Shown in pieces: positions 31,487 through 52,274 of a DNA stretch of 60,498 nucleotides. The notes beneath the pieces were generated by a model, which was not told the origin of the DNA, did not search any database, and was given only the letters and a program-made list of their open reading frames with translations. The stretch spans positions 1 to 60,498 of the forward strand of contig NZ_JAQTQR010000003.1 of NCBI RefSeq assembly GCF_028712165.1. Reading direction: 5' to 3'. Within the stretch, counting starts at the first letter, position 1. Every line of letters begins with the position of its first letter. Both the position numbers and the translations under genes were made by a program. The stretch comes from Sulfuricurvum sp. (GTDB lineage Bacteria > Campylobacterota > Campylobacteria > Campylobacterales > Sulfurimonadaceae).

Positions 31487-31576
31487 TGTAAAACGTTTCG
31501 GGAATAAAATCCCCAAAACTACGCTAACGCTGTGTTTCCTTCGGCAGGAAGCCCTTGCGCAGATAACTGCGCTATA
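31487..31576 (+). repeat. Three-hairpin intergenic repeat element, copy A
   Basis: Lies directly after the SUMF1-fold gene. It contains GGGA/TCCC, then CTACGCTAACGCTG, a hairpin GTTTCC-TTCGGCA-GGAAGC (31533-31551 region), and a third stem GCGCAG-ATAA-CTGCGC (31557-31572) followed by TATAAAAA. The same design with changed but paired stem bases recurs at about 52187-52274 after cheW. It may double as a terminator. Confidence 0.6.
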
Positions 31577-52186: not shown

Positions 52187-52274
52187 TTAAAACGCTAATC
52201 GGAACTCGTCCCGATTAGCTACGTTAACACTGGGCTCTCTTCAGCAGAGTGCTCAAAATCACTTGTGATTTTTA
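52187..52274 (+). repeat. Three-hairpin intergenic repeat element, copy B
   Basis: Follows cheW. Stem 1 is CTAATCGG / CCGATTAG; then CTACGTTAACACTG; stem 2 is GCTCTC-TTCAGCA-GAGTGC; stem 3 is AAAATCAC-TT-GTGATTTT followed by T-rich sequence. The 36-base core (52219-52254) matches copy A at 25 positions, and many differences in stem 2 keep pairing. Orientation relative to the upstream gene is the same in both copies. Confidence 0.6.

Follow-up and report, generated by a model that had tools for sequence, protein, structure and literature searches.

Two copies of a structured repeat in the window

The window, by which we mean the whole stretch of DNA analysed here (60,498 nucleotides from Sulfuricurvum sp.), contains two copies of a repeat unit of ~95 bases, which is dispersed between genes in free-living Campylobacterota at up to about 50 copies per genome. 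Copy A lies downstream of a plus-strand gene for an FGE-sulfatase-domain protein and copy B downstream of a plus-strand CheW gene. Each copy is composed of a hairpin (H1), an invariant core, a putative pseudoknot and a further hairpin (H3). The features of the two copies are given below with the strand that is probably the functional one.

31492..31572, minus (probable): copy A, complete structured element comprising H1, the core, the region of the pseudoknot and H3, from the R1 match and the sequence
31495..31519, minus: H1 hairpin of copy A, GTTTCGGGAATAAAATCCCCAAAAC on the plus strand, just 3' of GTAG on the minus strand, from sequence, folding and wobble asymmetry
31519..31532, minus: invariant core of copy A, CTACGCTAACGCTG (minus strand CAGCGTTAGCGTAG), with the GTAG tag and the covarying pair C31524-G31529 inside it
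31537..31554, minus: putative pseudoknot of copy A, from sequence and covariation
31537-31540/31546-31549, minus: 4-bp stem of this pseudoknot
31543-31545/31551-31553, minus: 3-bp stem of this pseudoknot
31557..31572, minus: H3 hairpin of copy A, GCGCAG ATAA CTGCGC
52191..52272, minus: copy B, whole structured element, from the R1 match and the sequence
52194..52219, minus: H1 hairpin of copy B, GCTAATCGG...CCGATTAGC
52219..52232, minus: invariant core of copy B, CTACGTTAACACTG (minus strand CAGTGTTAACGTAG)
52237..52254, minus: putative pseudoknot of copy B, from sequence and covariation
52237-52240/52246-52249, minus: 4-bp stem of this pseudoknot
52243-52245/52251-52253, minus: 3-bp stem of this pseudoknot, AGC/GCT
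52255..52272, minus: H3 hairpin of copy B, AAAATCAC TT GTGATTTT

The covariance model R1, which was built from seven copies, finds exactly two matches in the window, at 31492-31557 for copy A (65.7 bits, E 5e-15) and at 52191-52257 for copy B (64.0 bits, E 1.5e-14), and H3 of both copies was read off the sequence. The first-pass annotation had located both copies correctly, together with the shared core and the CTTCrGCAG loop that lies downstream of it in each. Within the window alone the 14-base core is weak evidence of a repeat, as two occurrences with up to two mismatches are equalled by 10 of 100 shuffles. Compared with shuffled sequence, folding is strong for copy B (z -4.6) and weaker for copy A (z -2.0).

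Copy number and distribution

The core CTACGYTAACRCTG occurs exactly 11 times in the 2.72-Mb genome and its backwards reading 0 times, and R1 identifies 20 full-length copies of 65-67 nt with E values of about 1e-8 or better. The repeat that had been proposed from two copies is therefore real. The covariance-model search of this genome and its relatives, suggested in the first-pass annotation as a check, returned many further copies, and these covary. Twenty-eight of 41 relatives searched with R1 carry copies, with a range in the same genus from 0 (G003, 99% complete) to 49 (E<=0.01). Within the class, 49 of 298 genomes carry the element and are concentrated in four families; carriers include Sulfuricurvum, Sulfurimonas, Sulfurovum, Sulfurospirillum, Hydrogenimonas and one Arcobacter MAG, and the complete, Sulfurospirillum-like genome G238 holds 37 copies. 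One IMG/VR viral contig bears a copy, and the plasmid and phage records searched gave no match. The family is absent from Rfam 15: nothing credible was returned for both window copies and an array (gathering cut-off and E<=10) or for length variants (E<=1). The core sequence was not found in the literature searched.

Copies are intergenic, often at most 25 bp from a gene end, and occur in both orientations. Relative to its neighbouring genes the element is oriented almost at random (++ 43, -- 38, convergent 26, divergent 17). The earlier statement that each copy follows a plus-strand gene thus describes A and B correctly and fails as a general rule, and the suggestion of a specialised 3'-end element is left unsupported because of this near-random orientation. 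Both filled and empty orthologous sites were found. Between the loci L172 and L125 the difference amounts to the element and some 15 further bp, and the element in L141 parts two genes whose counterparts in L213 overlap. Flanking direct repeats (score >=14) are present in 7 of 159 copies against 0.1% in the control; they lie on both sides, are 14-34 bp long with variable length, and concern a minority of copies. The mean flank match is 6.03 against 5.27 (sd 0.10) for shuffled pairings, part of this being due to arrays, and inverted flank matches are at control level (5.20 against 5.13). The arrays are head-to-tail, with units of 86-107 bp differing in the 4-bp stem. Ten length variants from two genomes have extra hairpins, mainly in the H1 apical loop or between the 4-bp stem and its loop, which is the site of the predicted 2-nt loop of the pseudoknot. 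No leading or lagging strand bias was seen by eye in the one complete genome inspected (G238), with the position of the origin assumed.

Several individual loci have features of their own. Two species share one insertion (L013 and L052), on both sides of which the 3' end of the neighbouring gene stands as a perfect direct repeat of 34 bp; in place of H3 there is GCAAAGATGGG, which matches this gene end in inverted orientation. Identical small hairpins, CAAGGGTACCG...TTTCCTTG and CACCCAAAGGGCACGTG, are located within the H1 loop of different copies (L290, L293, L296 and L298), as though hairpin loops were the insertion sites of a third, very small repeat. Copies at Sulfurospirillum-like loci, L108, L115, L121 and L131 among them, regularly have two more hairpins at their flanks, AGAGTTCTTGCAGAACTCT to the left and ACTTCTTGCAAAATGAGTTTTGCAAGAAGT to the right. 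Several copies in Sulfurovum-like genomes are situated between tandem tRNA genes (L091, L101, L109 and L140). One of the element's reading frames is open (YANAEFSSAE...) in L058, L073 and L090, where small ORFs are extended or overlapped, so predicted proteins may come to include element sequence.

Covariation and a putative pseudoknot

Analysis of 115 distinct sequences reveals 380 double-change cells in the H1 and middle-stem structure, where shuffles have 108; the covariation score is 0.575, against 0.186 after shuffling. The pair-conserving variation noticed between the two window copies therefore holds across the family, although the middle stem, read earlier as a hairpin, probably belongs to a pseudoknot formed by the opposite strand. 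The pair 53-63, third by mutual information, lies outside the nested middle stem; it is GC in 70 and AT in 58 of 131 copies, with 3 exceptions, and extends through 54-62 and 55-61 to a 3-bp stem, RGC/GCY, which interleaves with the 4-bp stem 47-50/56-59. The outer pairs of the nested stem are unsupported, because position 60 is free to vary while T46 is almost invariant. Counted on the minus strand, the pseudoknot together with pair 34-39 leaves 97.8% of cells paired, compared with 77.3% for the nested stem. Judged from these alignments, the middle region is probably better explained by a compact H-type pseudoknot, 5'-RGC-N-ssss-GCY-GA-ssss-AAC. Pairs 34-39 and 53-63 switch independently of one another.

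At orthologous sites, where some of the compared pairs lie inside arrays and may not be true orthologues, changes at paired positions comprise 54 double changes that are still paired, 8 single changes that are paired and 8 broken ones. The prevalence of double paired changes indicates that structure is retained after insertion, by selection or by gene conversion, and its retention at old orthologous sites suggests a function beyond mobility. The proposal of selection on structure made from two copies is in this way borne out by hundreds of relatives with strong covariation, orthologous sites included.

The minus strand is probably the functional strand

An A.C mismatch on the plus strand is a G.U or G.T wobble on the minus strand. 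Read on the plus strand, H1 has 159 A.C pairs versus 20 G.U pairs, and H1 of the sister family described below has 39 versus 1. The wobbles of H3 also favour the minus strand (55 versus 28), and the exceptions in the 3-bp stem and at pair 34-39 are mostly G.U on that strand. From general pseudoknot geometry, the connecting loops would be too short on the plus strand. On the minus strand a 1-nt loop would cross the deep groove of the 4-bp stem and a 2-nt loop (GA) the 3-bp stem, as is normal for the H-type. Because the predicted loop geometry and all of these wobbles favour the same strand, the functional strand is probably minus, and the plus strand implied in the first-pass annotation is probably wrong.

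A sister family

A second dispersed family, ACGCC-H1-CTACGCTAGCCGCTATGGCACTAAAGCTTGCCTCnnnnGAGGCAGAATTTT, emerged from weak R1 matches. It has 20 matches in this genome, all outside the window (L032-L041 except L035, and L309-L338). The H1+CTACGCTA end is common to both families, and the body of the second family differs and ends in a GCCTC/GAGGC hairpin. The second family is present in 24 of 25 same-genus genomes and missing from G003, which also lacks the first. The copy numbers of the two families are correlated (Spearman rho 0.89; Pearson 0.86 after genome size), although part of this may stem from cross-hits between the two models.

Search for a mobilising partner

No Y1_Tnp/RAYT gene is present in this genome. 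Six of the eight genomes with at least 20 copies lack Y1/RAYT, copy number is uncorrelated with Y1 (rho 0.10), and no element lies inside the ~3-kb Y1 loci examined; RAYT/Y1 was rejected as a present-day partner on these grounds. Clustering of 754 neighbouring ORFs yielded no recurring partner gene, as the clusters corresponded to ordinary genes, to orthologous loci or to translation of the element itself. RVT_1 was not detected in the copy-rich G012 and G015 (about 30 copies each), nor the TnpB C-terminal domain in any of the 16 same-genus genomes searched. Solo GTAG-H1' hairpins (GGRYTTTRYTC signature) were not found either, as all 12 genome matches belong to the first or second family.

Possible nature of the family

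We lean towards the view that the family is a non-autonomous mobile intergenic repeat, REP-like but larger. The suggestion of a REP-like family made earlier gains from the intergenic placement, the insertion polymorphism and the GTAG tag that immediately precedes a hairpin on one strand. In the minus-strand direction the layout would be 5'-[variable hairpin H3']-[H-type pseudoknot RGC N ssss GCY GA ssss AAC]-HCAGYGTTARC-GTAG-[hairpin H1', 2-3 nt loop]-3'. The single-stranded minus strand, as DNA or RNA, would fold into this H3'-pseudoknot-GTAG-H1' shape, and a trans-acting enzyme would read the GTAG tag and H1', as TnpA-REP reads a REP. Copying would then carry the element to further intergenic positions and there give rise to head-to-tail arrays and diverging copies. 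Mobilisation in trans, the enzyme, and DNA over RNA as the acting molecule are steps that we propose. The indifference to gene orientation, the flanking direct repeats above control and the sister family that shares the GTAG-H1' end also favour this reading. Against it stand the lack of Y1/RAYT in this genome and in most copy-rich ones, the missing partner gene and solo hairpins, a length and an array arrangement unusual for REPs, and the structure kept at old orthologous sites.

It is somewhat unlikely, yet deserves weight, that the dispersed copies instead encode structured non-coding RNAs of a new class, transcribed from the minus strand and possibly catalytic or protein-binding, with the pseudoknot and GTAG-H1' as the RNA core and the extra hairpins as peripheral domains. 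The compact H-type pseudoknot with its 1-nt and 2-nt loops fits the minus strand, where the G.U wobbles are also found; among changes at orthologous sites the compensatory ones prevail, with 54 double changes against 16 that are single or broken, and in the length variants examined hairpins have been added mainly at the H1 apical loop and the 2-nt pseudoknot loop, as structured RNAs grow. However, gene orientation is inconsistent, 92-bp array units leave scant room for a promoter, an Rfam relative is absent and copy number runs from 0 to 49 inside one genus. The same excess of double changes (54 versus 15 single ones) is what gene conversion would give if the copies were passive repeats, with covariation produced by conversion or templated palindrome correction in place of a selected structure. 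We consider this improbable: the pairs 34-39 and 53-63, at 2-3 bp, are too short for palindrome correction and yet switch independently, and the pseudoknot pair occurs in both states with broken forms almost absent.

A cis-acting 3'-end element on the plus strand, with H3 and a T-rich tail as an intrinsic terminator, is at least as improbable. T follows H3 at the first four positions in 120, 96, 79 and 75 of 138 copies and both window copies lie downstream of a plus-strand gene, but many H3 hairpins have no T run, orientation to the upstream gene is near random and the H1 and H3 wobbles point to the minus strand. Being structured, multicopy and mobile-looking, the element could also derive from a known RNA-guided or reverse-transcribing system, such as TnpB omega RNA, a group II intron or a retron remnant. 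This is very improbable given the missing TnpB C-terminal domain and RVT_1 in the genomes named above and the lack of an Rfam match; TnpB and reverse transcriptase are already largely refuted by absence, and an undescribed enzyme is possible. Two further candidates were set aside. A 5' leader or riboswitch in minus orientation was rejected, as start codons are not in excess on that side. UAACRCUG presumably recalls the twister ribozyme, a likeness that cmscan did not support.

For a non-autonomous mobile repeat, it is conceivable, though we rate it as rather doubtful, that the two GTAG-H1' families are substrates of one undescribed mobilisation system, other than RAYT, TnpB or reverse transcriptase, which would recognise the folded minus strand through hairpin and pseudoknot. 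If true, this would amount to mobile elements of a new, structure-guided class, or to a pseudoknotted RNA that is mobile. Little has been described of the intergenic repeats in this group of bacteria, for which the present family supplies a well-defined example that has hundreds of copies, a probable functional strand and a putative pseudoknot. Should the element move without RAYT, the spread of transposase-less REP-like repeats becomes directly testable; should it be an RNA, it would represent a structured class without previous record.

Comparison with known repeat systems

ERIC and Correia elements are MITE-like intergenic repeats, non-autonomous, structured and around 100 bp, with long terminal inverted repeats. 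The present family is likewise non-autonomous, structured, intergenic and around 100 bp, but has neither terminal inverted repeats nor a short fixed target duplication. ToxI, the antitoxin RNA of type III toxin-antitoxin systems, consists of short pseudoknotted repeats in head-to-tail arrays. This resembles the arrays seen here, although the present family is dispersed genome-wide and no neighbour gene recurs.

According to PMC3733652, CGTC-tagged REPs, along with Rickettsia and Neisseria palindromic repeats, are repeat families without a dedicated transposase and are reported also from Sulfurovum sp. NBC37-1. They share with the present family the lack of a dedicated transposase, and differ in their CGTC tag, single 8-9 bp stem and mostly head-to-head dimers.

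The closest likeness is to GTAG REPs. The definition of a REP requires a GTAG or GTGG tag that precedes a stem by 0-2 nt (PMC6006769), and recognition by TnpA-REP is strand-specific, for the GTAG strand (PMC8266576), which gives two independent reasons pointing to the minus strand. In the present family the last G of the minus-strand GTAG is position 29, which pairs at or adjoins the foot of H1. The corresponding plus-strand CTAC has three invariant positions in 131 copies and a fourth that is A in 128 and G in 3. The H1 stem reaches 10-11 bp, with loops of 3 nt (96), 2 nt (25) or 4 nt (10), compared with 6-13 bp and mostly 2-3 nt in REPs. Both kinds of repeat are intergenic and dispersed, have on one strand a GTAG that abuts the 5' side of a hairpin with a loop of 2-3 nt, show G.T pairs in their stems and form subfamilies with complementary stem changes. 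However, REPs are 20-40 bp long, head-to-tail arrays of them are rare and their dimers are mostly head-to-head or tail-to-tail, as stated in PMC3733652. The present unit of about 95 bp is two to three times longer, with two added structured modules including the pseudoknot; its arrays are head-to-tail, its GTAG-H1' was not found alone as a small single unit, and a Y1 transposase gene flanked by the repeat was not found for it. GTAG repeats have been reported in epsilon-proteobacteria including Sulfurovum sp. NBC37-1 (Di Nocera et al. 2013; PMC3733652, accessible part), so the H1' part may already be listed there under a short consensus. The family is REP-like in outline and is not filed as a REP.
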